DNA from: a virus
IMG/VR virus record: IMGVR_UViG_3300021389_000061
Coordinates: 1 to 37,473 of that record
Direction: 5' to 3' (one strand)
Length of the DNA: 37,473 nt
The notes beneath the pieces are model-generated. The model saw only the letters and a list, made by a program, of their open reading frames with translations. It ran no database searches and was not told the DNA's origin. Below, one piece after another: positions 319 through 26,459 of this stretch; the stretch's first letter is position 1; each line of letters starts with the position of its first letter. The translations under genes were made by a program, and so were the position numbers.

Positions 319-509
319 GCTCAAAAATATAGGTATTTGTGCGAATTAGTTCGATATTGGTAAAAATAGCCCGTATGCCTTTATAAAGCGAGCTTATGTC
401 GTGACACCAACGATTACCTATATAGGTAAATCGATTACCTATATTTTGTCATTTGCGTGTTTTTAGCCGGGAGAAAGAGGTGGGATAATAGGCACTCGAA
501 GGAGAGCCT
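319..509. promoter_or_regulatory. Intergenic operator cluster downstream of int
   Basis: This 190-base gap holds a half-site ATAGGTAT at 329-336, a perfect 14-bp palindrome TACCTATATAGGTA at 415-428, and a longer near-perfect inverted repeat with ATAGGTA/TACCTAT arms at 422-442. A -35-like ATGACA on the minus strand lies at 452-447. The same ATAGGTA/TACCTAT words sit inside promoters elsewhere in the window, so this is probably a binding site for the same regulator. No convincing -10 is seen on either strand inside the cluster; a weak GATAAT at 484-489 could serve the 47-residue gene. The attachment site may also be here, as is usual beside int, but no core can be recognised without the host sequence. 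Confidence 0.6.
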
Positions 510-653
510 ATGGAAATCACTGACATCAATGCAATTTACGGACCCTTGTGCGGGGTCATCGGACTTATTATTGTTTTAGCGAAAATGCACAACGATATCA
601 GCACCTTAAAAGAAAAAGTGAAGACGCTGTTTGATATTCACAATAGCAGATAG
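510..653 (+). CDS. 47-residue single-span membrane peptide
   Basis: A short gene with a good ribosome binding site (AAGGAG, 499-504) ahead of the ATG. The product has a hydrophobic stretch at about residues 10-24 (YGPLCGVIGLIIVLA), followed by a charged helical tail with KEKVKTL. The architecture resembles small phage membrane peptides of unknown role, and it could be a small holin or a superinfection peptide, but nothing proves that. Its stop codon TAG (651-653) directly touches the stop codon of the facing HTH gene with no spacer, so the two transcripts converge there. It lies downstream of the operator cluster at 329-442 and so is probably under the same regulator. Confidence 0.6.
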   Translation: MEITDINAIYGPLCGVIGLIIVLAKMHNDISTLKEKVKTLFDIHNSR

Positions 654-848
654 TTACGCGGCAGCTAGGAAATTAGCAACATCTTCCGTTTGGAATAGGT
701 AAGCTTTGCCTATTTTTTTGAAAGGTATTTCAATTCTGTTTTGGGCAATTTGATGATATATCGTACCGCGTTTGATTTTTAAAAGAACAGCAAGCTCATC
801 GATAGTCATCATTGGCCCGTGGTCAGCCAAAAGTAGGTCAAGCATCAT
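654..848 (-). CDS. Excisionase/AlpA-like helix-turn-helix protein
   Basis: A 64-residue protein whose core (about residues 14-60, MTIDELAVLLKIKRGTIY onward) matches the MerR-like HTH_17 / excisionase fold: a TxxELAxxL first helix, KxxRGTIYxxI recognition helix, then a basic KIGKAYLF wing and a C-terminal helix DVANFL. Such proteins bend DNA as recombination directionality factors or act as small transcription regulators. The position beside the integrase favours excisionase. The start ATG at 848 has GGAG eight bases upstream; the Met at residue 14 is an alternative. It is the last gene of the long minus-strand transcript and overlaps the preceding membrane-protein gene by a few codons. Confidence 0.72.
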   Translation of the reverse strand: MMLDLLLADHGPMMTIDELAVLLKIKRGTIYHQIAQNRIEIPFKKIGKAYLFQTEDVANFLAAA

Positions 849-987
849 CTAAGTATCTCCAAATATATTTTAAAATGTTTGCAAACAGCGCTAGAGTAAT
901 CCCACTCAGCGCAAATATTATAAAAACAGGCAGCGACACTAGAAGATACGCAACCCAGATTAAATTACGGATCATCCCTTGGGTCAT
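838..987 (-). CDS. Small membrane protein, ~49 residues
   Basis: The frame is open to base 1137, but only the part from an internal Met (987 or 975) looks real. It is strongly hydrophobic: two adjacent segments (IRNLIWVAYLLVSLPVFIIF and ALSGITLALFANIL) form one long or two short membrane spans, ending in a short KYIWRYLDDA tail. The upstream part of the frame is an overlap of the DUF3310-like gene. The start at 987 has GGGAG directly against it, and the one at 975 has GGGAG about 12 bases upstream, so the start is uncertain. It overlaps its neighbours on both sides, typical of packed phage genes. Function unknown. Confidence 0.5.
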   Translation of the reverse strand: MTQGMIRNLIWVAYLLVSLPVFIIFALSGITLALFANILKYIWRYLDDA

Positions 988-1273
988 CTCCCATTGAGAA
1001 ACGTGTAAACCAAATTTTCTTTTTCTTGTCTGTTGTTGTGTCTTTGTGCTTTTGTCCTTCTCGCCATTGGTACTTGAAGGCGCTAAGTTCGCAGTACTCT
1101 TGGACCCGTTGAATGCCGTAGACAGCCACCATTGCATCTATGCACTCAATAGCAAGAGTAGTCCCGCCTCGTGTGACAGTTGCTGTGTAGTGCTTTGGCG
1201 AATGTACTTCTACGTCTGCATTAGGGTTAGCCATGCTAAGTCGATTCCAGTCTTCGGGGGTGGCATCACGCAT
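965..1273 (-). CDS. DUF3310-like nucleotide kinase-family phage protein
   Basis: A 102-residue protein with the signature of the phage DUF3310 family: SPKHYT near residue 25, then IECIDAMVAVYG, then a CELSAFKYQWREGQK block (residues about 61-75), matching the usual HY...E.ID......G...KY..R...K arrangement. Members are widespread in phages and sometimes labelled nucleotide kinases, without a firm activity; they usually lie among early metabolic genes, as here. The C-terminal tail is very Lys/Asp-rich. The start ATG at 1273 follows GAGATT; an upstream alternative is not seen. The gene is preceded by a 58-residue protein and overlaps the following membrane-protein gene. Confidence 0.68.
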   Translation of the reverse strand: MRDATPEDWNRLSMANPNADVEVHSPKHYTATVTRGGTTLAIECIDAMVAVYGIQRVQEYCELSAFKYQWREGQKHKDTTTDKKKKIWFTRFSMGDDPRDDP

Positions 1274-1282
1274 TTTTAATCT

Positions 1283-1459
1283 CTAATGTATTTGACGGGT
1301 TGCGGCAGACTCATACACCGCTAAGATTTTGTTATGCCCACTCGCAAGGGCGTCGTAGGCGTCTGTTTGTCTGTTGGGATCTAAGTTGTAAAGCATGGTT
1401 TTTAAAGCACCAAGAACTGCTCTTAGCTCTAGGTGATCAAGTTCAAATGTTAAATTCAT
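1283..1459 (-). CDS. 58-residue hypothetical protein
   Basis: A small frame beginning MNLTFELDHLEL and ending AATRQIH, with a good ribosome binding site (AAGGTAA, about seven bases before the ATG). The product is mostly helical in character, with no membrane segment, no cysteine and no recognisable motif. It is separated by only nine bases from the following DUF3310-like gene, so they are probably co-transcribed. The spacing, ribosome binding site and good fit between neighbours support it as a real gene. The function is unknown. Confidence 0.6.
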   Translation of the reverse strand: MNLTFELDHLELRAVLGALKTMLYNLDPNRQTDAYDALASGHNKILAVYESAATRQIH

Positions 1460-1549
1460 AGCATTTACCTTATTAGGGGTGCCCCGTTTTCACCACTGGT
1501 GGGGCTGACCAGCAATCAAGGTCAGGAATGTAACCTTGGTGATTTTTAT

Positions 1550-2224
1550 TTATGCAGCTTCTTGTTTCCCCATGCCGGAAATCGACGTATACAGTTCTTC
1601 TGCTTCTGCATATAACGCTTCGTTGCAAAGACCGGCGTATTCGACTTGAAAGTTGTGCCAAGTGTTGTTACCTGCTTTTTGCATAACGGTGCTGAGTTTC
1701 CATACGGAAGCAAAACGATCTGTGTTTTGGGTAGCAATTGTTGAGTTCCAAGCATTGCTGACGCCTAACTTTGTGCCGCTCATATACATTCGAGCTGGAG
1801 TGATTGGCTCACCTTTGTCACTAAGAAGCAGTACGTTGTGCGTACCAGTTTCTTGGATGTCATAATCGTTAGGGTTGCCGCTTTCTTTCAGTGCTTTATC
1901 AGCATCTAGTCGAGTATCAAAAATGCCGAAAAAACCGCCGCCTAAATCTCGTTTTTTGAACACATTGAATGTTCTTGAGTAATAGAGATTTACAACATAC
2001 AACTCGTCGAACAACTGATCGGTTGTTGATAAGTGCATCTGCCCTGCTTTTGCGCCAATTGAATCGACTTGGGGGCTCATTTTTTGAATGAGATTTAGCT
2101 TAGGAATCACGACATCTTGTGATGTGACGTTTTCGTTACCACGCGCTGAACCGCTTAAATGAGCAGGTAGATCATCGCCAGCAGTGTGCTTGACGAAACC
2201 GGGTAATTGGATTGCTTTTGACAT
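1550..2224 (-). CDS. Conserved-type phage protein, possible ssDNA-binding/replication accessory
   Basis: A 224-residue soluble protein beginning MSKAIQLPGFVKHTAG with an excellent ribosome binding site (AAAGGAAATACAA then ATG). The part from residue 38 (DVVIPKLNLIQKMSPQVDS) resembles a recurring phage family that starts with a short linker and then an 'IPKLNLIQ..SPQV' block, followed by an aromatic-rich beta core (ELYVVNLYYSRTFNVFK). In related phages such genes lie in replication blocks and are sometimes suggested to bind single-stranded DNA; that is inference, and I see no OB-fold signature that proves it. The C-terminus is acidic (AEAEELYTS), as in many phage SSBs. It lies below the replication genes on the same strand. 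Confidence 0.55.
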   Translation of the reverse strand: MSKAIQLPGFVKHTAGDDLPAHLSGSARGNENVTSQDVVIPKLNLIQKMSPQVDSIGAKAGQMHLSTTDQLFDELYVVNLYYSRTFNVFKKRDLGGGFFGIFDTRLDADKALKESGNPNDYDIQETGTHNVLLLSDKGEPITPARMYMSGTKLGVSNAWNSTIATQNTDRFASVWKLSTVMQKAGNNTWHNFQVEYAGLCNEALYAEAEELYTSISGMGKQEAA

Positions 2225-2265
2225 TTGTATTTCCTTTAGTTAGTTAATGAGTTGCTGAGTTATTT

Positions 2266-2694
2266 TTATGAGCTTCTGTAGTTCAATTTCTCTACGTCGC
2301 TCGCTATGACGAAAGGTACGGTTTCGCCTCCGGGTTGTTCCGAAAGGTGATTTACAAGTTCTTTTACTGCCGATGAATTAAAATCTCTTTTTAATAAATG
2401 CAGGTATTCGTTCTTGTAGATCCACGCTAAAAACTCCTCCCAAGACTCAGGGTCGGGCCTGTAGTGCGTTTCGGTTTTGACATTGACGGTACAACTGTCG
2501 TTGCCAGCTTTAGATATTCCTTGCTGACGCATGGCGTATCTAATTTGCTCTTCAATAAAGCGCTTTTTTGCTTTGAGTTTTTTCTCAGCAGCGCTTGCTT
2601 GTTTTATTTCTCCGTTTATTCCTGTCAGATCTAGTAAAAGTTCGTCGAGAGAATAATCAAGAAATATTGGTTCTTCTATTTGGGCTAGCTCCAT
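2266..2694 (-). CDS. Coiled-coil protein, Gp157-like
   Basis: A 142-residue protein. Residues about 15-60 form a charged helix (IKQASAAEKKLKAKKRFIEEQ) likely to be a coiled coil, followed by a small alpha/beta domain (residues 64-142). The pattern, a Lys/Glu-rich helix followed by a short basic domain, recalls the phage Gp157 family, but the match is loose and the role is unknown. The ATG at 2694 overlaps a TAATAT -10-like word and directly follows a palindromic operator (2696-2710), so the start may also be used on read-through mRNA from the upstream SNF2 gene, which ends 20 bases away. An AGGGA about nine bases before the ATG could act as ribosome binding site. Confidence 0.55.
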   Translation of the reverse strand: MELAQIEEPIFLDYSLDELLLDLTGINGEIKQASAAEKKLKAKKRFIEEQIRYAMRQQGISKAGNDSCTVNVKTETHYRPDPESWEEFLAWIYKNEYLHLLKRDFNSSAVKELVNHLSEQPGGETVPFVIASDVEKLNYRSS

Positions 2695-2695
2695 A

Positions 2696-2720
2696 TTAGG
2701 TAATCCCTATATTGTTAGGC
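2696..2720 (-). promoter_or_regulatory. Operator-containing promoter ahead of the Gp157-like gene
   Basis: Read on the minus strand, the 15-bp element ATAGGGATTACCTAA (2710-2696) matches the window-wide palindrome ATAGGTA-N3-CCTAT with two changes. It is preceded by TCGCCT six bases upstream (a poor -35) and followed directly by TAATAT (-10-like, 2698-2693), which overlaps the ATG at 2694. The arrangement matches the better promoters at 5.75, 20.15 and 26.45 kb, but the -35 is weak and the transcription start would fall past the ATG, so this may be an operator more than a working promoter. Confidence 0.5.
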
Positions 2721-4079
2721 GACTAAAATATCTAAAAGCTCATCGCTTCTGGATATCTTTTCATTTAGTAGATGGTACACATCCACTTCTTTTGTAGCGC
2801 GTGCAGCTATACAGATTGTTTCCGTTTTGACTGTCTGCCCAATCCGATATATGCGCCGATTAAACTGTTGGAATTGCTCGCTAGAGTATGTCGGCGTACA
2901 CCAGATGGTAGTGGCTGCTTTAGTCAAAGTAAGACCGTGTGCAGCCGCTTGTGGGTGGCAAAATAGAACTTTGATATTGCCTTCTTGAAAGTCTTTTACG
3001 GCTTGTGCCCTCTTTGCTGTAGACACGCTGCCATCAATAAACGCGTAAGAGAATTTGTATTTTTCAGCTAATTTACTGAGAGCTTCACGTTCATGTTTCC
3101 AGTTGAATGCAACTAGTGAATGTTCACGCTCAGAGACTAACTGCATTACTAATTCGTAGCGATCATTGTGGACTGGTACGGCTTTACCGTTTGCGTCGTA
3201 CACAGTGCCTGACAGAATTTGCAGCATTTTTTTTGTCCTCGCGCCTGCGTGAATGGCAGACAACAGTAGTCCACCATTTTTATCACGCAGGGTTGAGTCC
3301 TGTTCCATTTCCGCATACGCATCGAGTACTTTCTTAGGCATGTCAACTAACATCATGTGAATGCTGTTAGGGGGTATGTCAACACAATCTTCGAATTTGA
3401 ATCTAATATTTACGTCAGCTAACGCGTCAGCAACGGCGGCGGGTGCCCCCGGTTTATCGACCCATTTTACGTGGTCTTGATAACCTATAGCTTCAGGTGT
3501 ACATACTTGCGAACGGAATTGAAAATACTTGTTTCCAAGGCGGGTGCCTCGGTCAAGTATCATCATCGGATGCCACATATCTAGTACCGTATTAGGTATC
3601 GGTGTTCCAGACAGTAGCGTTCTATGCTCAAAGTTAAGGGAGACTTTGAGCATAGATTTACTACGCGCAGAAGTTCTATTCTTAAACGCAGTAAATTCGT
3701 CAATTACTAGATCGGTGAATCCATCTAAGTAACTTAGGTTTTTTTCAAGCCACTTTACGCCGTCGTGGTTGATGAGAACGATGTTTGTTTGTTGGTCGTT
3801 GAATGCCGAGTGCCGATTCTTATCAGGTTGGGTTGCAATGGCATACGTTAAGCTTGTAAACCGTTCAATATCATCAGCCCACGAAGCGCGTAAAATGGAT
3901 AGCGGCGCAATGACTAAACAACGACCGGCTGCTCCACGCGCAAATCGTTTTTGGTAGCTCATAAGAGTACCAAGCGTTTTACCTGTGCCTGGATCAGATG
4001 TATTGAGAATTAACTCGTGGTCATCTCCATACTTGGCCATTTTGGCTTGATGTGCGTAAGCAGTTGTTATCATCTCCAT
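2715..4079 (-). CDS. SNF2-family DNA helicase/translocase
   Basis: A 454-residue SF2 ATPase with both RecA-like lobes. Visible motifs: motif I DPGTGKT (residues 29-35), motif II VIDEF (DE at 127-128, continuing TAFKN in place of the usual AHxLKN), motif III LLSGTPIPN (about 155-163), motif V (AAAHGLTLTKA) and motif VI (QQFNRRIYRIGQ) near the C-terminus. SNF2 proteins translocate on double-stranded DNA; phage versions are thought to help replication or recombination. This one is the minimal catalytic core with no accessory domain. It follows an exonuclease and a PD-(D/E)XK nuclease in the same direction and overlaps the preceding membrane-protein gene by 10 bases. Confidence 0.9.
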   Translation of the reverse strand: MEMITTAYAHQAKMAKYGDDHELILNTSDPGTGKTLGTLMSYQKRFARGAAGRCLVIAPLSILRASWADDIERFTSLTYAIATQPDKNRHSAFNDQQTNIVLINHDGVKWLEKNLSYLDGFTDLVIDEFTAFKNRTSARSKSMLKVSLNFEHRTLLSGTPIPNTVLDMWHPMMILDRGTRLGNKYFQFRSQVCTPEAIGYQDHVKWVDKPGAPAAVADALADVNIRFKFEDCVDIPPNSIHMMLVDMPKKVLDAYAEMEQDSTLRDKNGGLLLSAIHAGARTKKMLQILSGTVYDANGKAVPVHNDRYELVMQLVSEREHSLVAFNWKHEREALSKLAEKYKFSYAFIDGSVSTAKRAQAVKDFQEGNIKVLFCHPQAAAHGLTLTKAATTIWCTPTYSSEQFQQFNRRIYRIGQTVKTETICIAARATKEVDVYHLLNEKISRSDELLDILVA

Positions 4080-4372
4080 TCGCCGGGAACATCAACCCAA
4101 CGATATGAACCACCTACTTTCATAAATTTTGAATGGCTGAATAATTTTTTGCCAAAGAACAAAACAATACTGACTAATAACCCGCAGAAAATGCCAGTCA
4201 TTAAGCCTGAGATTGTGCCTGATATGGCAAAAATCCACATGAGAGCGAGCGTGACAGCAACATCAACTATGATATCCATGCCTAGTAGCTTGCGAACGAA
4301 GCCTGAGCCGAACTTTGCAGCGAGAAAAGCTAGTGCGCCGCACACCATAAGACCGCCTATTAAGATTGTCAT
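4070..4372 (-). CDS. Membrane protein with three predicted spans
   Basis: A 100-residue hydrophobic protein with segments at about residues 1-20 (ILIGGLMVCGALAFLAA), 33-52 (DIIVDVAVTLALMWIFAISG) and 55-73 (ISGLMTGIFCGLLVSIVLFF), ending in a soluble basic/aromatic tail. Its ATG forms an ATGA overlap with the stop of the DEDDh exonuclease gene, and GAGGAG lies upstream inside that gene, so it is translationally coupled. A holin-like role is possible from size and topology but is not supported by position: it lies in a DNA-metabolism block far from the M15 peptidase. No function is assigned. Confidence 0.65.
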   Translation of the reverse strand: MTILIGGLMVCGALAFLAAKFGSGFVRKLLGMDIIVDVAVTLALMWIFAISGTISGLMTGIFCGLLVSIVLFFGKKLFSHSKFMKVGGSYRWVDVPGEWR

Positions 4373-4995
4373 TTTTTGTATTTCTCCTCTATTGGTAGTT
4401 TGTCAGTAGGAACATGAAGCATTTGTTGCAGCGCCCACACATCGTATGCAGCATCGTGCAGTGCGTTGTGATGAATCATGTTTTTTGGCCTTGTCAATTG
4501 TAGGTTTGTATTAAGACCTAGCGCCTCAAGATGAGTTCTAATGTCTCGTACTAGCCAGTATTTCCAAGGTGACGTTACGTTAAAGTCACGGAACATATCG
4601 TCCATGATACTCATGTCGAACGTCGGTCCTCTTGCAAACCATCGGGCTTTATTTTGAAGGAACGCAACTTGTATGACGTTATCGCCGCAAAACTTTTCAA
4701 ACACTCCATAGAATTTCCGGGGGTGTATTTGTTGTGCAGGGTCTACGTTAAGCACTCGTTGTGCTGCTTCGCCTTGTTTTGACCACCAATCAAGTGTGCT
4801 CTGATCAATATGCCGACCAGCATCTACTTGAGCTTGGGTGTCAAAAAAGAGTTCAATACCTCCTTCTACTATTTCATCGAATGATTGAACTTTTTCGATA
4901 TCGAATAAACAAATGCCAACTGATAGCACTACGGCATTTGCTCTGGTCGATAGCGTTTCTATGTCCATTGATACTGCTGTCAAGCTACGCCCCAT
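4369..4995 (-). CDS. DEDDh 3'-5' exonuclease (Rv2179c-like)
   Basis: A 208-residue protein of the DnaQ/RNase T fold. Catalytic residues can be placed: D11 and E13 in SMDIET (motif I), D127 in GPTFDMSI (motif II) and H176/D181 in HNALHD (motif III). The phrase DIETLST...VVLSVG is typical of the Rv2179c-like exonuclease family common in phages. It would degrade single-stranded DNA or RNA 3' ends with two metal ions. It overlaps the PD-(D/E)XK nuclease gene by 16 bases at its start and the membrane-protein gene by 4 at its end, so the three form a tightly coupled unit. The polymerase encodes its own exonuclease domain, so this is a second, separate activity. Confidence 0.85.
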   Translation of the reverse strand: MGRSLTAVSMDIETLSTRANAVVLSVGICLFDIEKVQSFDEIVEGGIELFFDTQAQVDAGRHIDQSTLDWWSKQGEAAQRVLNVDPAQQIHPRKFYGVFEKFCGDNVIQVAFLQNKARWFARGPTFDMSIMDDMFRDFNVTSPWKYWLVRDIRTHLEALGLNTNLQLTRPKNMIHHNALHDAAYDVWALQQMLHVPTDKLPIEEKYKK

Positions 4996-5738
4996 TTACA
5001 CACTTCGGTTTTGAGATGTGGGCACCACTTGCAATTGTATTTTGATGGGTTTGGTGTAAATGATGTGTCTGATGTCATTTGAATACCGCGCATGTCCCAT
5101 TTTGGGACAAACTGTTCAGCTTCTTCGCGTGTGTATTTTTTATTAAGTGTTTCGCCTTTGTCTAAATACCAGAATTCACATTCTACGTATTGCAGCAGCG
5201 GGAATCTTTTGAAAGCACCAATCGCGTATAGTTGTGCTTGTTGCAGATGGTTTATTTCGTTACCGAACTTTCTGCCTGTTTTGTAATCGATGATCGTTGC
5301 TGATTGATCGTCATGTTGCACGTATGCATCGAGCTTCATCCTGAGCCAAGTGTCGAGTGACGACCAGCCAGTTATTTCCCAGTCTCTTGTGAATCCCCAG
5401 TCTTGTTCCAAGATGACTTTGGCTTGGTTATATCTCTCTCGAAGGGTTGTAAATTCCGTTTTGAATTTTTCAAGCTCTTGCGGCAGATCGATAATATTGC
5501 CTTGAACGAATTCTTCTCCAAGGAGATGTATAGCTGTACCTCGGTCCATAGCTGCACTAGAAGGCTCTGGATGCTTTTCAACCTTTGACAGATATATTCT
5601 ATGAGGGCAGCTTTCATAATTTTTCAAAGCAGAGTAAGACCAGCTCGGTACGGAGCCAGTTTTAGCAGTAGCTTTCCTTAATGCATGGAGATCTTCTGCG
5701 GTTCTTTGGGGGTCGAATGTGAAACTCATCACAGTCAT
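4980..5738 (-). CDS. PD-(D/E)XK nuclease, Cas4/RecB-like with Fe-S cysteines
   Basis: A 252-residue nuclease. Motifs: SWSYSALKNYESCP near the N-terminus with C44, RGTAIH (H71), D137 in RMKLDAY, DYKTG (D151, K153) and QAQLY (Q167). The C-terminal cluster C236-x2-C239-x7-C247 together with C44 gives the four-cysteine set that holds a [4Fe-4S] cluster in AddB and Cas4 proteins. It is likely a DNA-end processing exonuclease for phage recombination or replication. There is no CRISPR array or other cas gene, so a Cas4 role is not implied. The -10 of its promoter overlaps the first ATG (5738) and no Shine-Dalgarno is seen; Met4 (5729) may be the start on a leaderless mRNA. Confidence 0.85.
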   Translation of the reverse strand: MTVMSFTFDPQRTAEDLHALRKATAKTGSVPSWSYSALKNYESCPHRIYLSKVEKHPEPSSAAMDRGTAIHLLGEEFVQGNIIDLPQELEKFKTEFTTLRERYNQAKVILEQDWGFTRDWEITGWSSLDTWLRMKLDAYVQHDDQSATIIDYKTGRKFGNEINHLQQAQLYAIGAFKRFPLLQYVECEFWYLDKGETLNKKYTREEAEQFVPKWDMRGIQMTSDTSFTPNPSKYNCKWCPHLKTEVCKWGVA

Positions 5739-5764
5739 AATAGGCTATACCTATATTTTGTCAA
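5737..5764 (-). promoter_or_regulatory. Promoter with perfect palindromic operator
   Basis: On the minus strand: TTGACA (5764-5759), 16-base spacer, TATTAT (5742-5737). The spacer and -10 contain ATAGGTATAGCCTAT (5754-5740), a perfect ATAGG-N5-CCTAT palindrome. This is the best sigma70 promoter in the window and the clearest copy of the repeated operator. The -10 overlaps the first ATG of the nuclease gene, so the transcript would start near 5730, next to the fourth codon, itself an ATG. Confidence 0.78.
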
Positions 5765-8280
5765 GTAGCTTTAGCACTAAATGGAACTACATTTAATGAA
5801 TTGTTGTGATTTAAAATGTCGTTTACATCGTCAATGTCCCAACCTGCAAGCCTCCACTCAACGCTGATGCCTGATCCGCGAAGCAATCCTTTTTTAATAG
5901 GTTGCGTTTTTATATTTGCAGAAGCTAGTTTTTTACCAAAAGCGTTGTCGAATTCAGAGAATCCAGCGATTGTGTTGTATAAGACGCGTAGCTCAGAAGT
6001 AAGCATTTTTTGTTCGGGCTGTGCTTTATATGTGTGCAGGGTTTGTATCAGAATTTCTTTAGCTCTTGGTATGTAAACGTTTGTTGTAAGGTTGTCTTCT
6101 AACAAAGGCGATAGGAAGTAAGCTAGATTTCCAGTTTTTAGATTGTAGAAGAATTCATCTTCTGCGGATTTGGATGCCATTATCATTTGTTGTTTGGAAT
6201 CTGTTACTTCATTTTCAAGATGCAGAGATTCGTTGTAAGTGTAGCTTTGTAAAAAAGCAGCGAAGTAAGGCAGCTCTGAACTAAGAATGTTGTCTTTTTC
6301 AGACTGCTTTAAGTTTAAGAATTTTGGAAAACTTTTCTTTAACGGTATTTCTTGTCTAGGGCAAATTCTAAAACGTCGGTCTGTATGATCTAAGACTACT
6401 GCGTCAAGATCATTAGTGAACACCATCCAGTTGACCCAGTTTCGTTCGTTAATCATAGAAGCATACATATTGCGGACTGGTTGTTTGTGTTCAGTGATTA
6501 AAGACTTAAAAGTATTAATGAGGCCAGAGTCGCGGTTTCCGTTGACTTTGAATTCATCTATTGCGATTACAACTGAGTCGTTAATGTACGCGTTGAAGTT
6601 GTCTCGCAGATCGTTCATCCGAGCGATTTTGGCGTATTTTTCTCCTAGCAGCGGTTCGATAATGCTTTTAAGCATTAAACCTTTTCCAGTTCCCTGTGTA
6701 CCTTGGAATACAAAACATATCCCGGTTTTATGTCTGCGTTGGACAATGTGAGCTAGCCAATTTATGAAATGCTCAAATTCTTCTGCGCCTACAAGATTGT
6801 TTTGATCTTTAATATTCTGGCCGCACGCGCTACCTATGATGCTTACAATAGTTGGGCAAAGTTCTGCAATCGTTGCGCCGTAACCGAACGAAACTTCTTT
6901 TAAGTGATTGGGCAATTCAGGCAAGTTTTCCATTAGTTCTGGCTGGCTGTAACGATTTAATTCTTGCTTTTGCCAGTTGATAGGTTCTATTGAAGTTGGG
7001 TCAAATCGTAAATTCCAAACGGGTAACGCTTCAGGCGCTGTGACACCAAACTCTGCACAAAAGTATTTTATTGGTCCTATTTGGTGCTTGACGTTACAAA
7101 GCGTGTTGATTGTATTTCTGTCTTTGTCTATCAATGCATAAAAGTAGTTAGAAGTTTGGAAGTCCATAAAAACAAGTGGTATTTCGCCTTTTTCGTTTGT
7201 GGCATTTTCTAAAGTACAGTAAGTAGCGATATGTTGTTCATAAGCTTCTTTGTCTGCTTTAGCAAAATCAAAAGCTGTTTCGCCTTTGAAGTTGTACATC
7301 ACTGTTGGGTTGTTGCGGAATGTCCAGTACGCGCCAGAGTCACCTGACCGCCCTGCCCCATGAACATTGTATCCAATGAACTCATCTCGTTCGTTATCCC
7401 ACGTTATGGAAACTAGATCTGGGTTAGTTATGTAAGATACAGATTCGCCTTGTATTTCTATTACTTTTTGTTTTTGCTTTTTTGCAGGCAACCCCATTTC
7501 TTTGCGGCAGATTCGTAATTGTTTTTCAATTTTATTTTCGATTTCAGTTATGTTGATTGTTTGCAAATAAGCATCAATGTCTAAAGTGTCGTTCACTGCT
7601 GCTAAAACACCGTATCTTTCGGCGTCAGATACAAATGGGTTGTCATTAGCATTGGTGAATGTTGGAGGGGCTATGTAGCAAAGTCGTCCTGCATCGTTGA
7701 CCATAATGTCTATTGGGTAACTGAGTGTCAGTCCAGTCGCATTAATTTTGATGTTATTGGCAAAAAATTCTGAATATAGATTTAAGTGTTTGCATACATT
7801 TTTTAGAAGCTTTGGCATGATTGGCTCAGAAAGCAACCAGAACACATGCATACTGATTGTGTTTGTTTTTATTCCAAAACTACTACTCGCTTGAAAAATG
7901 CAGGTAGCATTTTGAAATTGCAGAGGTAGTTTTTGCACAATAATGTCTACATATTTGCGTACATCAACGGCAGTAAACTTTTTAGAAGTGTCGATTTGCA
8001 TTGGGAGATTATCGACATCTAAAATAAATAGTTGCGTTGGTGCAAAACGATCGTGTGTTTGTTTACGTGATTCGTTGGTTAGCACTCGTTTTAGATCACC
8101 TGTGTGGAGAGCTTTTCCTTCCGCTCCTTGTTCTTTCAATACATCTAGTAAGGCGTAGCAATCATTTACGTTTACTGTGTTTGAAGAAACGTTTTTTGAT
8201 AATGGGTAAGCAGTTACACCTTTTTCACTGTATGTTTTAGAAAGAGGTGAATTACCCTGCAAATAAGTTAAACGTGGCAT
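5761..8280 (-). CDS. AEP primase / SF3-type helicase (DUF5906-like)
   Basis: An 839-residue two-part replication protein. The N-terminal part shows the archaeo-eukaryotic primase triad: DxD (D88, D90 in FILDVDN), SxH (S143, H145 in ISMHVF) and a later D191 in YPIDIMV. The C-terminal part is an AAA+/SF3 helicase: Walker A GTQGTGKG (527-534), Walker B VVIAIDEF (about 569-576), motif C MVFTND (619-624) and Arg finger DRRFR (634-638). The layout recalls the NrS-1-type primase-polymerase plus DUF5906 helicase. Here a separate family A polymerase is present, so this protein probably primes and unwinds. A good ribosome binding site (AGGAG) precedes the ATG; the polymerase gene ends eight bases upstream. 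Confidence 0.85.
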   Translation of the reverse strand: MPRLTYLQGNSPLSKTYSEKGVTAYPLSKNVSSNTVNVNDCYALLDVLKEQGAEGKALHTGDLKRVLTNESRKQTHDRFAPTQLFILDVDNLPMQIDTSKKFTAVDVRKYVDIIVQKLPLQFQNATCIFQASSSFGIKTNTISMHVFWLLSEPIMPKLLKNVCKHLNLYSEFFANNIKINATGLTLSYPIDIMVNDAGRLCYIAPPTFTNANDNPFVSDAERYGVLAAVNDTLDIDAYLQTINITEIENKIEKQLRICRKEMGLPAKKQKQKVIEIQGESVSYITNPDLVSITWDNERDEFIGYNVHGAGRSGDSGAYWTFRNNPTVMYNFKGETAFDFAKADKEAYEQHIATYCTLENATNEKGEIPLVFMDFQTSNYFYALIDKDRNTINTLCNVKHQIGPIKYFCAEFGVTAPEALPVWNLRFDPTSIEPINWQKQELNRYSQPELMENLPELPNHLKEVSFGYGATIAELCPTIVSIIGSACGQNIKDQNNLVGAEEFEHFINWLAHIVQRRHKTGICFVFQGTQGTGKGLMLKSIIEPLLGEKYAKIARMNDLRDNFNAYINDSVVIAIDEFKVNGNRDSGLINTFKSLITEHKQPVRNMYASMINERNWVNWMVFTNDLDAVVLDHTDRRFRICPRQEIPLKKSFPKFLNLKQSEKDNILSSELPYFAAFLQSYTYNESLHLENEVTDSKQQMIMASKSAEDEFFYNLKTGNLAYFLSPLLEDNLTTNVYIPRAKEILIQTLHTYKAQPEQKMLTSELRVLYNTIAGFSEFDNAFGKKLASANIKTQPIKKGLLRGSGISVEWRLAGWDIDDVNDILNHNNSLNVVPFSAKAT

Positions 8281-8288
8281 TAACGCTC

Positions 8289-10133
8289 CTATTTTGTGTA
8301 TCGATCAGTTACAAAGCAGTCAAGGTCTAAGACCAAGGAATCGTCGCACCATTCTGGGATGCGTCTAAAAGCGTTATCGATGATCGATAACGCGTATTGA
8401 GTTAAGTTTTTAGGGCAATGCACTACGATCTCATCGTGGACTTGCAAAACAATGTCTGCGTCTGAGGTATCGCAAAGCTTTTTGTTTACTTCCAGCATGA
8501 TGTCGCGCAGTACACATCGGGCAGCTCGCTGAACAATGTTCTCAGTTAGTTTGCCGCCATATATGTTTACTGGATATTTGCCGTTCCAATAGGTTGAATC
8601 TGTACCGGTAGGAGTCACTATTGATTTCAAGTTTGGAAAACTCATGTGCATACCATCGGGCATTAATAGTTGTTTGTACTTTACGGTTAAGCCACGTTGC
8701 TGATCACTAGCTGTTCGATCGTGCATTTTCATGAGATAGGTATCGCATTTTCGCCAGTAAGCTGGGATTGCGCGATATAAATTTCTGAATGTTTGAACAT
8801 ATCGTTGAGCGTCTTGTGCTGTTACGTCGTGAGTCAATCCTGCTGCGCCAGTAAGGAAAGTTGTTTGTAGTTTTTTCCAGCCCATTTGATAGCCAAGGCC
8901 GAGAACACAAACTTTTCCAATCCGGCGTTCTATTGTGTGTTTTTTACCTTCTTCACTTTGGTCAAAAGTGTCGCCAAAAACTTGTAACGCAAAATCAATA
9001 TAGGGATCACCTTTATTCTTGTAGATGCTTAATAGACGTTGATCTTGAGCAAACCACGCCAATAGTCGAGCTTCTATGTTGCTTGAGTCAGCTATGATTA
9101 AGTCATAACCGCGTTGGGCTTGTAGTGCTTGTCGCAGTGGGCTGGTACGTTTCAAGTTCTGCAAATTTATCTTGTTAGTACCGCTCCACCGTAAGGTATG
9201 TGCGCCAGCATACTTTAACGGGACACCTATCAGAGTGCTGTTGCTTCGGCAGTTTTCTAAGAACGTATTGGCTCTAGTGATTTCTTGCCTTGAAGCTATA
9301 GCGTTGCGTGCGTCCCAAACGTTCTTATACTGAGGGTGATCTTTTTGTAGCTTGATCCATTCCAGATCGGATTTGGAAAATGGCCACTTTAAATTGTCAG
9401 GATTTTTTAGTGTTGGTGACGGTACTTGCTTTATAGGTATTCCCTCTGATTGTATCCAGTTTGCAAATCGTTTACTAGAACTGAGAACCTTTTCTGGTAC
9501 GTTTTGGGCCGATATAAGCTGCTTTAGCGAAACTTCCAGAGTTTCTAAATACTCTCCCACTTTTCTAATATCGACTGATAGTTTAGGACAAAAATACATT
9601 TTGTGAGTAAGGGCCATTGCAGCCAGTTCTTCTTCAGGAAAAGCTTGGTACATTGTTTGAAACAATGCAAAACAGACATTGACATCGTTTATTGCATACT
9701 CTTGCAATGTGTAGAATTCTTCAGTTGTTAGCTCTTTCTTGCCTTTAGTGTCTGTTAGTCCACTGGTTTTGTGTGGGCCGTTGGGGAATAGACGCTTTGC
9801 TAGACCAGCTAGGCTGTTTTTTCCGAAAGGAAATAAAGCACGTCCCATTGCTAGGGTGCAGTAAGCCGTAGGTACGTCAATGGCGTAGTGCAAGGCTAAA
9901 ATGCAACCATCAAAAAACATATTGTGCGCGACGATGATGTCATCTTCTTCAATTAAGTTAGTGAGATATCGTTTGATGTCGGTTGATATGTATTTGGTTG
10001 GTTCGTCATTGATTTTGACTGCCACGCCGTGAACTTTAAAGTCGTCATGTTGTATATATTGCTCGTAACTGAGCTTGGTTAACGAGTATCCAGTTGCATA
10101 GTATGTTTCAAAATCTAGCGTTATTACTTTCAA
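8289..10133 (-). CDS. polA: Family A DNA polymerase with 3'-5' exonuclease domain
   Basis: A 614-residue replicative polymerase. The exonuclease domain is intact: D7/E9 (LDFETY), D75 (AHNMFFD) and D150 (YAIND). Polymerase motif A is ADSSNIEAR (D349, E354), motif B RRIGKVCVLGLGY (R403, K407, L411, Y415) and motif C VHDE (H566-E568). There is no 5' nuclease domain. Aligned on R754/K758/Y766 of E. coli Pol I, residue 762 is Leu (L411), the variant described as common in marine virioplankton and linked to temperate or slow-replicating phages. The start is TTG at 10133, five bases after an AAGGGG ribosome binding site; no ATG is available near it. Confidence 0.95.
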   Translation of the reverse strand: MKVITLDFETYYATGYSLTKLSYEQYIQHDDFKVHGVAVKINDEPTKYISTDIKRYLTNLIEEDDIIVAHNMFFDGCILALHYAIDVPTAYCTLAMGRALFPFGKNSLAGLAKRLFPNGPHKTSGLTDTKGKKELTTEEFYTLQEYAINDVNVCFALFQTMYQAFPEEELAAMALTHKMYFCPKLSVDIRKVGEYLETLEVSLKQLISAQNVPEKVLSSSKRFANWIQSEGIPIKQVPSPTLKNPDNLKWPFSKSDLEWIKLQKDHPQYKNVWDARNAIASRQEITRANTFLENCRSNSTLIGVPLKYAGAHTLRWSGTNKINLQNLKRTSPLRQALQAQRGYDLIIADSSNIEARLLAWFAQDQRLLSIYKNKGDPYIDFALQVFGDTFDQSEEGKKHTIERRIGKVCVLGLGYQMGWKKLQTTFLTGAAGLTHDVTAQDAQRYVQTFRNLYRAIPAYWRKCDTYLMKMHDRTASDQQRGLTVKYKQLLMPDGMHMSFPNLKSIVTPTGTDSTYWNGKYPVNIYGGKLTENIVQRAARCVLRDIMLEVNKKLCDTSDADIVLQVHDEIVVHCPKNLTQYALSIIDNAFRRIPEWCDDSLVLDLDCFVTDRYTK

Positions 10134-10142
10134 GGGGGCCCC

Positions 10143-12276: not shown

Positions 12277-12278
12277 TT

Positions 12279-14353: not shown

Positions 14354-14383
14354 ATTAAAGAGGTGTTACCTATATATTTTATC
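14354..14383 (-). promoter_or_regulatory. Promoter/operator of the MoxR module
   Basis: Minus strand: operator ATAGGTAACACCTCT (14373-14359), one arm mismatch from the ATAGG-N5-CCTAT consensus, followed by TTTAAT as -10 (14359-14354). The -35 region reads GATAAA, which is poor, so an activator or the operator itself may be needed for strength. The transcript would start near 14347 and leave a leader of only about ten bases before the MoxR ATG. Confidence 0.6.
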
Positions 14384-14820: not shown

Positions 14821-14822
14821 AT

Positions 14823-15747: not shown

Positions 15748-15771
15748 AAGTAACCCGAGGATTGTGGAGGT

Positions 15772-15841: not shown

Positions 15842-15846
15842 GGACG

Positions 15847-16638: not shown

Positions 16639-16676
16639 ATTTTGATTTCCTTGATCCATAAAATTAACAATGTTTC

Positions 16677-16707
16677 TTTGAATAGGCAATACCTATATTT
16701 AAAGTGA
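16677..16707 (-). promoter_or_regulatory. Promoter with perfect operator ahead of the 263-residue gene
   Basis: Minus strand: TTCACT (-35-like) six bases before ATAGGTATTGCCTAT (16696-16682), a perfect ATAGG-N5-CCTAT palindrome, then TATTCA as -10. The leader to the ATG at 16638 is about 35-40 bases and includes a proper ribosome binding site, unlike the promoters at 5.75 and 20.15 kb. Confidence 0.65.
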
Positions 16708-17132: not shown

Positions 17133-17135
17133 GCG

Positions 17136-18081: not shown

Positions 18082-18091
18082 TTGCTACTCC

Positions 18092-18325
18092 TTAATCAGT
18101 GAGGTCGATGATGCCGTGTTGATCTAGCTCGAATAAGGTGTAAACACCTAAGTCTTCGGCCATGTCTGCGGATGCTGATAAGTCAGCGAGTAATACACCG
18201 CCGATCGCTAATGCGATGTCGCCACGATTGTCTACTGCCCATTTACCGGCTGCTTTGAGCCGTTCCATGTTAAGAGTGCCGAGTGCCGCGAATAGTCCTG
18301 CTTTTGCTACGTTTGATTTATTCAT
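18092..18325 (-). CDS. 77-residue hypothetical protein
   Basis: Starts MNKSNVAKAGLFAALGTLN after AGGAGCAATAAGC. Ala/Leu/Gly-rich with a moderately hydrophobic stretch (GDIALAIGGVLLADLSASAD) and an acidic end. Could be a small peripheral membrane protein. Function unknown. Confidence 0.55.
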   Translation of the reverse strand: MNKSNVAKAGLFAALGTLNMERLKAAGKWAVDNRGDIALAIGGVLLADLSASADMAEDLGVYTLFELDQHGIIDLTD

Positions 18326-18327
18326 GC

Positions 18328-18570
18328 TTATTGCTCCTGAGTGTCATTAAAGTATTGTTGTGCGTACTGGTTATCTGACTCGGCCATCAGCACTTGTAGC
18401 TCATGGATTAGGTCGGGTAATTGATACCGTTGGATTGGCGTTATGGTTATGTAGCCACTGTCATGGAATTCAGTGAATTGAGGCCATGAGTCTGCGAGGT
18501 GTCTTGCAGAGCGTGCAAGATTAAGGTGTTTGGCTGGGCTTGCAAGATTATCGAATTGATTAAACTTCAT
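18328..18570 (-). CDS. 80-residue hypothetical protein
   Basis: Starts MKFNQFDNLASPAKHLN after AAGGATTCTATT, and overlaps the end of the 42-residue gene by 11 bases. Soluble, His/Gln-rich (DLIHELQVLMAESDNQYAQQYF). The middle (SGYITITPIQRYQLPDLI) may be a small beta part. No family recognised. Confidence 0.55.
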   Translation of the reverse strand: MKFNQFDNLASPAKHLNLARSARHLADSWPQFTEFHDSGYITITPIQRYQLPDLIHELQVLMAESDNQYAQQYFNDTQEQ

Positions 18571-18688
18571 AATAGAATCCTTCTACAGATGATGCGGTTA
18601 TGTGTAATTCGATGTCGTTTGGATCGTCGAAAGCTAATTCGGCAACAAACAATTCGAACTGTTGGTCCAGTGTTAATGTATGGTTCAT
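18560..18688 (-). CDS. 42-residue hypothetical protein
   Basis: Starts MNHTLTLDQQFELFVAEL with AGGAAT eight bases upstream and runs into the next gene, whose ATG lies before its stop. Strongly acidic and small (DDPNDIELHITAS). The overlap and ribosome binding site make it a likely real gene and the first of the 18.7-16.7 kb run. It follows a 560-base noncoding stretch. Confidence 0.5.
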   Translation of the reverse strand: MNHTLTLDQQFELFVAELAFDDPNDIELHITASSVEGFYYEV

Positions 18689-19251
18689 AGATTATTCCTA
18701 TTGATTTAAATGATATTGGTACAGGGCAGGATTGCCGATCGTCGAGTGACGATTTGCCTTGTTTTGGGAAGTTGAGTAAGATCAACGAGTTACGAGTGTT
18801 GTACAAGGCAGTACATGGTAGAAATCAGGGGATGAAATCTGCCATGTACCAGATAGCGGTTAGCTAAGGTATTGATATACATACTTTATTATTACTACTA
18901 TCATTAATATTTATATAAAATACATAGTAGAAAGGTGTTAAACAGACTTTATGTTTGCGATAAACGAAAACAAGGGTCTGAATAATGAAGAAAGAATGGA
19001 TATCGTTAAAAACGTTTTATATAGCACAGGATTTACACCTTCTGTGCCGTGTACCATGTGTTATGGGATTAACATTGGTATATAAAACAATAAGTTACAA
19101 GATAAAGGTAAACTAGCTACCATGTATTTCGCACTCTACATGCTTGGCACTCCCTACTCGCCACTTGTTAAGGTCCATCGTGACTCGAAACTCGAAGTCT
19201 GACGGGGGTGGGATCGTCGATCAATACTCTCAGATTGACGATTGACGAGTG
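18689..19251. other. 560-base noncoding region with hairpin, AT-rich tract and repeated words (possible origin or regulatory region)
   Basis: Seen here: an inverted repeat ATCGTC-GAGT-GACGAT (18738-18753); a 12-bp stem GTACATGGTAGA/TCTGCCATGTAC with one G-U pair and a 15-base loop (18811-18849); four ACCATGT-like words (18811 and 18841 in the stem, 19052-19059, 19118-19125); an AT-rich tract (18870-18935, e.g. TTATTATTACTACTATC); and a GACGATTGACGAGTG run near 19235. A promoter-like TTGATA near 18873 points right. The mix of iteron-like words, hairpin and AT-rich tract suits an origin or a control region between small-gene operons, but no single element proves either. Confidence 0.45.
18951..19085 (+). 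CDS. Possible 44-residue plus-strand peptide
   Basis: A short frame MFAINENKGLNNEERMDIV...CTMCYGINIGI inside the noncoding region. It has a CxxC pair (PCTMC) and a plausible length, and lies after the AT-rich tract and a rightward promoter-like TTGATA. The nearest AAGG is about 14-15 bases from the ATG, which is too far for a good ribosome binding site. It could be a small leader or regulatory peptide, or chance. Confidence 0.25.
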   Translation: MFAINENKGLNNEERMDIVKNVLYSTGFTPSVPCTMCYGINIGI

Positions 19252-19482
19252 TTAAGAGACCTTGTTGGGTATACAAGACCAATTCGGTATCTTGACCCAG
19301 TTGGAGGTGACGCCATGAGGCGTTTTCCGCAACGCTTGCGCTAGGAGCACAGCTTCTGCACGGCCCATTGTCATCTTGGCTCGATACTTGGCGGTCGCCG
19401 ATTGGATACAGACCAAGTGACGAGTGCCCTTCTTGGTTTGCATCGGCTGGATATACACTTCTTGGATGTTGAACTTGCTCAT
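19252..19482 (-). CDS. 76-residue basic hypothetical protein
   Basis: Starts MSKFNIQEVYIQPMQTKKG after a strong ribosome binding site (AAAGGAGATACCCA). Lys/Arg-rich with a beta-like first half (HLVCIQSATAKYRAKMTMG) and a helical middle (RAEAVLLAQALRKTP); it could be nucleic-acid binding. The ATG overlaps the end of the 36-residue membrane peptide gene. No family recognised. Confidence 0.6.
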   Translation of the reverse strand: MSKFNIQEVYIQPMQTKKGTRHLVCIQSATAKYRAKMTMGRAEAVLLAQALRKTPHGVTSNWVKIPNWSCIPNKVS

Positions 19483-19589
19483 TGGGTATCTCCTTTGTTG
19501 GATGTGGGGTGCGGCATTACGAACGTAAAGAACGAGATCGTTAGGACGATCGTGGATAGTGCGAATACGATGATTGAGTCGATAGGCAT
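19479..19589 (-). CDS. 36-residue single-span membrane peptide
   Basis: Starts MPIDSIIVFALSTIVLTIS with GGGGGAG six bases upstream. One membrane span (residues about 5-24) then a short polar tail (HPTSNKGDTQ). Its TGA overlaps the ATG of the 76-residue gene (CAATGAGC), and the ribosome binding site of that gene is inside this frame, a typical coupled pair. Function unknown; small toxic or membrane-modifying phage peptides have this shape. Confidence 0.6.
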   Translation of the reverse strand: MPIDSIIVFALSTIVLTISFFTFVMPHPTSNKGDTQ

Positions 19590-19592
19590 GAC

Positions 19593-19916
19593 TTACTCCC
19601 CCAACACTACTTTGGCTTGGGCGTACTGTTGCTCGGCATAGGCACGGTTTGCCCTAACTTCCTTCTCGTAGAGGTGGCCTTCGACCTGGCAGCGTCCGAT
19701 ATCGGTTAAGATCGCAGTGCCTAGGCCAAAGAACAGGCTACCTGTTACTGCTTCGACTGCGAGCATCGTTGCTCCTTGAGTACCTACTGACTTGGCAATC
19801 GCTTTAGGGCTCCATACCCCGCCGTCTTTGTCGTTGCTGTATAGCTGATTGACAATGCCGTGTGCCAATGCGGTAGTGGCGAGGGCTTTCGCTTTTGCTT
19901 TTGCTTGTTCGAACAT
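19593..19916 (-). CDS. 107-residue Ala-rich protein, possibly membrane-associated
   Basis: The frame is open upstream to 19970, but the good start is ATG 19916 (MFEQAKAKAKALATTALAH), preceded by AAGGAGATACATC. Ala- and Lys-rich at the N-terminus; residues about 46-70 (GATMLAVEAVTGSLFFGLGTAILTDIG) are hydrophobic enough for one hairpin or span. The C-terminus is charged (KEVRANRAYAEQQYAQA). It is the first gene of the leftward cluster and follows a ~220-base leader from the divergent promoter region at 20.15 kb. Confidence 0.6.
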   Translation of the reverse strand: MFEQAKAKAKALATTALAHGIVNQLYSNDKDGGVWSPKAIAKSVGTQGATMLAVEAVTGSLFFGLGTAILTDIGRCQVEGHLYEKEVRANRAYAEQQYAQAKVVLGE

Positions 19917-20129
19917 GATGTATCTCCTTGATACTGGTTGATGCCGTAAGTGGCACAAAAGGAATTCCACCTAGGTTCAATGCGATTGCGGATGGACAAG
20001 GTTCCATATACGAAAACGGGATTGAAGGTGGAACAAGTCCGAATAAGTAGAAAAACGTGTGTGCCGGAAATACCCCATATTTTTTTGCCAATTTTTTTGT
20101 ATCGTATTTTTCTCCTTTTATTGGTACAC

Positions 20130-20159
20130 TTGCCTTTAATTATAGGTAACACCCATATT
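20130..20159 (+). promoter_or_regulatory. Late-gene promoter with operator; overlaps a leftward promoter
   Basis: Plus strand: TTGCCT (20130-20135), 18-base spacer, CATATT (20154-20159), with ATAGGTAACACCCAT at 20142-20156 (one arm mismatch to the palindrome). The predicted transcript would start about at 20166, at the ATG of the next gene. On the minus strand, the same bases hold TATAAT (20143-20138), which with CATATA 17 bases upstream could drive the leftward genes. A regulator bound here would control both directions. Confidence 0.68.
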
Positions 20160-20164: not shown

Positions 20165-20443
20165 ATGAAATTCGTGCCAGCCAAAAGAGAGAAGCTATTG
20201 CGCTCCATTGCTCGCACTGGGGGAATCCTTGAGTCACTGACTCACACCGGCGTCCATCGCTCGTCTTATTACAACAGAAGATCAAGGAGACCTGTTTTTG
20301 ACCATGCTGTTGAGATCGCTCTTTGTTATCACAAGACCAAAAAAGCCAACGAGGAACTCAGTTACCTAACCGCAGGTGCTTTCCCAACTTCAGCGCTTTC
20401 TGAATGTTTAGAGCGTCTGATTGAAATTGACAAAAAACAGTGA
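20165..20443 (+). CDS. HTH protein at the head of the late genes
   Basis: A 92-residue basic protein: KREKLLRSIARTGGILESL...TGVHRSSYYNRR (residues about 7-40) is a good helix-turn-helix, like the N-terminal DNA-binding part of small terminases, then a helical acid part. Since a fuller small terminase follows two genes down, this may be an extra DNA-binding factor or transcription regulator of the late operon. The ATG lies six bases after the -10 and no Shine-Dalgarno precedes it, so a leaderless mRNA is likely. Confidence 0.62.
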   Translation: MKFVPAKREKLLRSIARTGGILESLTHTGVHRSSYYNRRSRRPVFDHAVEIALCYHKTKKANEELSYLTAGAFPTSALSECLERLIEIDKKQ

Positions 20444-25259: not shown

Positions 25260-26242
25260 GCGATAACGCCGCAGAAGCTGTACTAGATGAACCTGATTTT
25301 GCTGAAGAAACATTTGCTGGTGCCGATGAGCCGGAAAGCAGCACTGAACCCACTATTGATCGAGGAGATGTAGTTGCAGATTCAACGTCGGAACCAGTTG
25401 AGGAAGCAGTGGAACCTGCGCCAGAAGAGACCGAAGCTGAAAGAGAGCCAGGCGCTGAAGCTGAGGCTGAAGCCGAACCGGAAACCGAAGCAGTGGCTGA
25501 AGAAAGCAACAGGGATGCTTTCCAAATTCCTAAATCGAGACTCGATAAAGAAATAGCCCGTAAGAAAGCATTGCAGAACCAAGTAGAGGAATTGCAACGT
25601 AGGCTAGACGAACAACAGAACGGCGTAGCCCCCCAGCAAAGCGAATTTGTTTTTGAGGGTGGCGATGATCCGCGAAAGATGTTCGACAAAGTACTAGAAG
25701 GCGATCTGGATACTGCCAATGACTTGTTTTCCTCGATGGTGAGCAAAGCCGTCAATGCAGGAATTAGTTCCGCCACTCAAGGCATCGAGACACGCGTTCG
25801 AGATCAGGTGAAGCAGGTCCAACGGCAACAGACTGAAGGTGAGGTCGCCGAACAGCTTGAGAACACTTACGACTTTTATCGTGCTGACAGTGATGACTAC
25901 GACGAAGGCTTGGTCGAGGAGACTTTAGCGATCCGAGATAGTTTTATAAATCGCGGGTACGAGCCAGCCGATGCAATGAGGCAGGCTGCTGATTACGTCA
26001 TCAGGGTTAACAAACCCGAACTGATTGCTACGCAGGAGGCAGTAGCCCCCGCACAGCAAACCAGAAACCCCAACGCGGTTCAGAAGAATGTAGCAGCCGC
26101 CAATCAGCAACCACCATCCTTACCGACTTCTACCCAAGGCAGTAAAGCCCCGCCAGAGATAGATCTATCATCTTTGTCGATAGAAGAGTTCGACGCTTTG
26201 CCTAAAGCAACTTTGGCGCGTCTACGTGGCGATACTTTCTAG
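25256..26242 (+). CDS. Scaffold-like protein
   Basis: A 328-residue protein whose ATGA overlaps the portal stop. The first ~80 residues are very acidic with EAEAEAEPETEA-type repeats; residues about 95-120 are a coiled coil (DKEIARKKALQNQVEELQRRLDEQQNG); the rest is helical and ends in a basic-acidic mix. Position between portal and capsid and this composition are those of phage scaffolds, which guide capsid assembly and are then released. No protease is seen nearby. Confidence 0.8.
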   Translation: MSDNAAEAVLDEPDFAEETFAGADEPESSTEPTIDRGDVVADSTSEPVEEAVEPAPEETEAEREPGAEAEAEAEPETEAVAEESNRDAFQIPKSRLDKEIARKKALQNQVEELQRRLDEQQNGVAPQQSEFVFEGGDDPRKMFDKVLEGDLDTANDLFSSMVSKAVNAGISSATQGIETRVRDQVKQVQRQQTEGEVAEQLENTYDFYRADSDDYDEGLVEETLAIRDSFINRGYEPADAMRQAADYVIRVNKPELIATQEAVAPAQQTRNPNAVQKNVAAANQQPPSLPTSTQGSKAPPEIDLSSLSIEEFDALPKATLARLRGDTF

Positions 26243-26255
26243 GTGGTGCCAGTTT

Positions 26256-26315
26256 GCGGAGAGGGGGTCTCCGCGATAGGAGGCAGGGGGCTTCGGCCCT
26301 CTCCTCCACCTTTTT
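26256..26315 (+). terminator. Hairpin plus Rho-independent terminator after the scaffold gene
   Basis: Two structures: a perfect GCGGAGA-GGGGG-TCTCCGC hairpin (26256-26274) and, next to it, GGAGGcaGGGGGC-TTCG-GCCCTCtCCTCC (about 26279-26307) followed by five T after a short ACC (26311-26315). The second has a stable UUCG loop and the T-run of an intrinsic terminator. It should end or reduce the TerS-portal-scaffold transcript; the capsid gene has its own promoter downstream, so expression is split. Confidence 0.8.
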
Positions 26316-26333
26316 AATACAGGAGCACATACG

Positions 26334-26426
26334 ATGCATGTTGGAAAAAACAAGAAATGTACATTGAACGCCAGTGGGCCAAAAAGCAGACCAAAGCCAA
26401 AGCCACCAAAAACTAAGGGATACTAA
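26334..26426 (+). CDS. 30-residue Lys/Pro-rich peptide
   Basis: Starts MHVGKNKKCTLNASG with AGGAG nine bases upstream and ends PKPKPPKTKGY. Strongly basic. It lies between the terminator and the capsid promoter. Small Lys-rich peptides of this kind occur near capsid genes of several podoviruses; the role is unknown, and capsid decoration or DNA binding are guesses. The clear ribosome binding site supports translation. Confidence 0.5.
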   Translation: MHVGKNKKCTLNASGPKSRPKPKPPKTKGY

Positions 26427-26430
26427 TAGC

Positions 26431-26459
26431 TTGTGTAAAGTATAGGTAACGCTTATAAT
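26431..26459 (+). promoter_or_regulatory. Capsid-gene promoter with operator
   Basis: TTGTGT (26431-26436), 17-base spacer, consensus TATAAT (26454-26459), with ATAGGTAACGCTTAT at 26442-26456 (one arm mismatch to the palindrome). It lies about 145 bases before the capsid ATG, leaving a leader of about 138 bases that can form small hairpins (e.g. GGTCGCT...AGTGACC near 26550). GGAGG six to seven bases before the ATG is a strong ribosome binding site. Confidence 0.75.

Follow-up and report, generated by a model that had tools for sequence, protein, structure and literature searches.

Dispersed palindromic sites in an uncultivated temperate phage family as probable operators of a lambda-CI-type repressor

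Phage lambda has six operators arranged in two clusters, and its late genes are controlled indirectly through Q. In the Streptomyces phage phiC31, conserved inverted repeats are dispersed dyad repressor sites, some of which lie in promoters. Phage P1 uses one repressor, C1, with 22 dispersed operators, including one at the repressor gene itself; the operators are asymmetric 17-bp sequences (ATTGCTCTAATAAATTT) and late genes are reached via the activator Lpa (PMC8546580). L5 and other cluster A phages carry more than 20 dispersed sites in short intergenic positions with an orientation tied to transcription, and motif and repressor diverge together between relatives (PMC9283540, PMC6550527). The L5 sites are 13-bp asymmetric sequences bound by a monomer of a two-domain repressor, many of them proposed to block elongation (PMC9283540, PMC6550527), and a single repressor serves operators at promoters as well as stoperators between genes (PMC9283540). 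The SPbeta master repressor MrpR acts on a 15-bp element, SPBRE, in ten prophage promoter regions (PMC10516654). Here we analyze a 37,473-bp virus contig from IMG/VR (IMGVR_UViG_3300021389_000061, the whole of which is called the window), in which an initial annotation had noted six copies of a palindrome and proposed a single repressor acting at dispersed promoter operators. The six copies are very probably operators of a lambda-CI-type repressor whose gene adjoins the integrase and falls just beyond the contig end.

This predicted system shares its many dispersed operators and the operator at the repressor gene with P1, but its operator is a symmetric 17-bp dyad of different sequence that also lies directly ahead of packaging and capsid-type genes. 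Dispersal, intergenic position, orientation and the joint divergence of motif and repressor are as in L5, whereas the sites here are dyads in promoter spacers, not 13-bp asymmetric sequences, and are paired with a lambda-CI-like repressor. MrpR of SPbeta has a degenerate tyrosine recombinase fold, in contrast to the CI-type helix-turn-helix (HTH) protein found here. With lambda CI the system has in common the CI-type HTH, a 17-bp dyad starting with TAT and the Gln residues aligned with Gln33 and Gln44; the lambda operators are clustered, whereas the operators here stand singly at many promoters, those of structural genes among them. The likeness to phiC31, which has a different repressor family and host group, is one of description.

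All six copies claimed by the initial annotation were recovered. Two are perfect ATAGG-N5-CCTAT dyads (5740 and 16682) and four carry one arm mismatch (2696, 14359, 20142 and 26442), with an additional spacer difference at 2696. A loose form of the pattern allowing up to three mismatches occurs 51 times in the window, as compared to 20.4±5.0 in shuffles. When the window was scanned with a weight matrix trained on 11 sister-phage sites and on no window data, the six sites took ranks 1 to 6 of 37,457 positions (shuffled sequence expectation 0.04). Each of the six resides at a gene boundary, the site at 20142 overlapping only a spurious open reading frame (ORF). The placement ahead of gene blocks thus held as far as boundaries are concerned, but several sites occupy short spaces of about 20 bp separating co-directional genes, with 2696 and 5740 in gaps of ∼20–22 bp. 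Similarly, the ATAGGTA arm is nearest the −35 throughout the window but not in all relatives, as the sister site A1:47967 has ATAGGC upstream. Among 23 sites with TATAGG letters (type A) read in the gene direction, arm mismatches fall 10 times in the downstream arm and never in the upstream arm.

Close relatives were obtained by TerL-based searches; all contigs are metagenomic and genes were called with a simple ORF script. The sister phage A1 is a 63,480-bp circular genome closed from contigs G005 (lengthened by 1,070 bp with the near-identical G003) and G031, with overlaps of 31.8 and 11.9 kb at 99.97–99.99% identity. A1 contains 11 perfect ATAGG-N5-CCTAT copies (control 0), nine of them intergenic or immediately preceding a gene start and two overlapping coding sequence. 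All six window sites have a perfect A1 copy ahead of the orthologous gene (6/6). The gene family of 4980–5738 is preceded by sister site A1:7132 and, in a more distant relative, by a site with other letters (TATTAG type, G008:30864). The copy at A1:1161 spans the integrase gene end, just ahead of the next ORF. Its counterpart in the window (∼412–447, from the integrase end to ORF 510–653) reads CGATTACCTATATAGGTAAATCGATTACCTATA, three half-sites at non-standard spacing that may represent a changed operator or belong to attP. A perfect operator at A1:1945 (L331:9785–9799) lies within the excisionase coding sequence. An exact scan of IMG/VR for ATAGGTAACRCCTAT returned 90 stretches, among which there were no evident relatives of the window phage besides sister-lineage contigs.

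The window contig ends short of the position of the CI-like gene, which is why the initial annotation, in which the region left of the integrase was suggested for a search, saw no regulator. At that location in the sister, a CI-like gene (L331:7055–7750) adjoins the integrase gene (L331:7944–9017). The 231-amino-acid product matches HTH_3 in Pfam (4.9e-6), a transcriptional repressor in PHROG (5.5e-16) and, over the HTH, lambda CI in the PDB (2.2e-5; 3kz3, 1lmb). A perfect 17-bp dyad site (A1:62607) is located 74 nt upstream of the CI-like gene start. The CI-like protein most likely binds the sites and represses, and the window phage's own CI-like gene probably lies just left of position 1, where it is predicted to encode a TQASF-like recognition helix and to be preceded by an operator. 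A query with the integrase C-terminus for the left end of the window phage found no relative. Two other window genes were rejected as the regulator: the small HTH-like protein 20165–20443 is a terminase small subunit by PHROG and sits in a regulated operon, and the excisionase-like protein 654–848 has an HTH_17 domain of the excisionase type.

When the window's letters were scanned across 161 distant loci, nothing above chance was found outside the close cluster. This null result led us to a letter-free dyad scan, which revealed other specificities: distant relatives carry sites with the same 17-bp geometry at the same positions and with different letters (Table 1). In all alphabets a Y and an R adjoin the arms. 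CI-like genes are present near the integrase in G008, G009 and G020. Among the CI-like proteins the residues at the positions of lambda Gln33 and Gln44 are always Gln, and the residue aligned with lambda Ser45 is Ala in the TATAGG type, Gly in the TATTAG type and Ser in the TATAAG type; we take these three lambda residues to have contact roles. As a test of prediction, contig G034 was fetched solely by 69% CI identity to G008, which has 9 perfect copies of its operator type, and G034 holds 10 perfect TATTAG-type sites. Operators occur in integrase-bearing contigs, with 0–1 copies in integrase-less relatives of 42–58 kb. Operators remain in front of matching gene families, most clearly at the inferred major capsid gene, which in eight phages (window, A1, G002, G008, G021, G026, G029 and G007) has an operator 147–222 bp upstream. 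In these comparisons the operator letters change jointly with the repressor; the predicted target of the L331:7055–7750 protein is ATAGGTAACACCTAT, not the TATTAG-type sites. In G002 (IMGVR_UViG_3300047373_000487), whose integrase region is beyond the contig, the sites are mostly one-mismatch, several with ATTGG for ATAGG, reflecting either drifting specificity or decay. A probable ribonucleotide reductase small-subunit gene, judged by eye, lies near the TATAAG-type lysogeny module (G009:5976–6935).

All six sites had been placed inside promoters. This stands for four of them, with strong elements at 5740 and 26442 and fair ones at 16682 (TTCACT-18-TATTCA) and 20142 (TTGCCT-18-CATATT), but not for 2696 (TCGCCT-18-TAATAT, weak) and 14359. 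Of the 24 oriented TATTAG-class sites, 15 carry a TTG precisely 11 nt upstream and 23 have the T completing TAATAT, yielding a promoter of the form TTGNNN-N17-TAATAT with the operator as spacer. The mean −35 score was 1.81 for TATTAG sites (type B) vs −0.64±0.47 in shuffled flanks (0/500) and 1.29 for type A vs −0.52±0.47 (1/500); these values include a modest selection effect from orienting the sites by their downstream gene ahead of the test, and the type-B lists admit up to two mismatches. In the opposite orientation the score is at background level. Promoter-spacer placement is strongest in the TATTAG class and weaker in the TATAGG class. At one TATTAG-class position the ATG occurs 5–6 nt past the −10 in 5/6 phages compared, with normal leaders at other sites; an ATG this near the −10 suggests that these mRNAs may be leaderless.

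Table 1. Operator-like sites, predicted promoters and neighboring features (window coordinates unless a contig is named).
Feature	Position	Strand	Context
Operator 1, ATAGGGATTACCTAA (gene direction)	2696..2710	-	between genes 2715-4079 and 2266-2694; sister A1:4100 perfect
Operator 2, perfect, ATAGGTATAGCCTAT	5740..5754	-	ahead of RecB-like nuclease gene 4980-5738
Operator 3, ATAGGTAACACCTCT	14359..14373	-	ahead of AAA-ATPase gene 13321-14337; sister A1:15566 perfect
Operator 4, perfect, ATAGGTATTGCCTAT	16682..16696	-	ahead of gene 15847-16689; counterparts A1:17414, G002:33457
Operator 5, ATAGGTAACACCCAT	20142..20156	+	ahead of packaging block; A1:20035 perfect; also G002:30733
Operator 6, ATAGGTAACGCTTAT	26442..26456	+	148 bp ahead of 26605-27720, inferred major capsid gene
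Predicted promoter TTGACA (5764-5759)-16 nt-TATTAT (5742-5737)	5737..5764	-	operator 2 fills spacer, overlaps -10
Predicted promoter TTGTGT (26431-26436)-17 nt-TATAAT (26454-26459)	26431..26459	+	operator 6 in spacer
Tyrosine integrase, C-terminal part	1..318	+	cut by contig end; Pfam Phage_integrase 1.9e-9
Excisionase/AlpA-type HTH_17 protein	654..848	-	second element of lysogeny module; integrase precedes
Packaging block: small HTH/TerS-like protein, HNH-like, TerS-like, TerL	20165 onward	+	
Operator type TATTAG-N5-CTAATA			G007, G008, G018, G020, G021, G026, G029
Operator type TATAAG-N5-CTTATA			G009
Sites with start codon just past predicted -10	G008:44266, G021:33638, G026:22678, G029:724, G007:21758		gene ahead of packaging operon

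In the mechanism we propose, a repressor dimer would bind the 17-bp palindrome TATAGG-Y-N3-R-CCTATA. At most sites this dyad would take up the spacer between the elements of a sigma-70-type promoter, overlapping the −10, so that bound repressor would exclude RNA polymerase. One protein would separately silence the replication and nuclease operons, the packaging operon and gene 26605 (inferred major capsid), and its reach in the sister phage would extend to tail-region and lysis-type genes as well as to the gene for the repressor itself. The joint shut-off of replication, packaging and capsid genes would keep the virus dormant. The single repressor at dispersed promoter operators put forward in the initial annotation is well supported by the conserved positions, the sister CI-like gene, the integrase-linked occurrence and the joint change of operator letters and repressor. 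Promoter occlusion at many separate sites is the most likely mode of action, with an elongation roadblock possible at promoter-poor sites. The window and sister sites are single, genome-wide; there are no clustered operator triplets, and no divergent Cro-type gene was identified. A broader proposal, which we regard as plausible if slightly short of probable, is that a CI-type repressor spread over nearly every lytic unit, including the structural genes, and replaced a late activator or antiterminator cascade, that at least two switches of alphabet (TATAGG, TATTAG, TATAAG) took place, each affecting all sites jointly and leaving their positions unchanged, and that some genes with a start codon 5–7 nt past the −10 are leaderless, fusing operator, −10 and start codon.

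Several points weigh against a CI-type repressor acting by promoter occlusion. The −35/−10 elements are poor at 2/6 window sites (2696, 14359), and promoter occlusion may therefore not be the mechanism at these two. Two copies with one mismatch each lie in the DNA polymerase gene (9000–9014 and 9433–9447), scoring just under the six in the matrix scan. Pfam recognized no Peptidase_S24 domain in the sister CI-like protein, in which the phrog_4 match spans residues 22–180, and the single-sequence structure prediction for the protein had a predicted local distance difference test (pLDDT) score of 37, too low to use. The window itself contains no copy of the repressor gene, as the contig ends inside the integrase gene; of its closest relatives, G001 and G006 match inside the window and the others yielded no contig reaching past the integrase. 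The copies at 9000 and 9433 are retained in G002 (40583, 40150), differing by no more than one change, and are absent from sister A1; they are most simply explained by codon conservation, and a roadblock role is also possible.

A roadblock is central to the main competing explanation, possible though clearly the less likely, in which the same repressor works as in the mixed L5 system and, at the promoter-poor co-directional sites 2696 and 14359, halts elongating polymerase, not initiation. The ∼20–22 bp co-directional gaps at 2696 and 5740 and the poor elements at 2696 and 14359 are in agreement with this; however, the site here is a dyad whereas the L5 monomer site is asymmetric, most TATTAG-class sites place TTG precisely at the −35 position with TAATAT as the −10, and the weak sites may yet function as weak promoters. 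The sites could instead be promoters for a phage-encoded RNA polymerase or activator, as an element of lytic timing; in favor of this are their directional placement, the AT-rich tract immediately upstream, the invariant upstream arm and the downstream location of all arm mismatches. We consider this improbable: dyad symmetry is strict and extends to the Y/R positions, none of the window genes examined was noticed to encode a phage RNA polymerase, a perfect copy lies ahead of the CI-like gene, the letters track the CI-like repressor, and the sites are absent from integrase-less relatives sharing the structural genes.

Translational control by an RNA hairpin near start codons is more improbable still. 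A start codon lies within 20 nt of the end of many sites, and ATAGG and CCTAT could pair as a stem, but the predicted transcription start is downstream of the palindrome, which would therefore not be in the mRNA. In addition, the distance to the start is ∼150–220 nt at the inferred capsid gene, and most arm mismatches do not pair, one of them being G-U, while C-A and G-A combinations, likewise non-pairing, occur at positions 7/11. We give equally little credence to use of the sites by a host regulator, such as a GntR/FadR-type factor reading GGT-N3-ACC. This core resembles what we take to be FadR/PdhR-type half-sites, but the TATTAG and TATAAG classes lose it and keep their positions, each tied to a phage CI-like gene.

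The window comprises leftward replication and nuclease genes (654–20,000) and a rightward packaging and structural block (20,165 onward), with a non-coding share of ∼8%. The window phage is temperate and a member of an uncultivated family. A near-identity search of the phage collection with the window returned 0 matches; the closest isolate by TerL is Aeromonas phage phiA008 (43%), in which none of the three operator types is present. The TerL of L197 (CALKDE010000287.1), a contig binned in a Pseudomonadales metagenome assembly, is 99% identical to that of the window, a weak host hint.

A limited literature search found no system that combines a lambda-CI-like protein, a 17-bp dyad in promoter spacers, direct placement ahead of structural genes and several operator alphabets at fixed positions. 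The most likely interpretation is CI-type repression in the dispersed style of P1, L5 and SPbeta, reaching both early and structural genes and with an operator specificity that has changed across whole genomes. An uncultivated phage family would thereby gain a specific mechanism for lysogeny, together with a sequence signature by which temperate members can be told from those lacking an integrase. With at least three operator alphabets found at conserved positions with matching repressors, the family may provide a natural series for a repressor and at least 10 operators changing specificity together.

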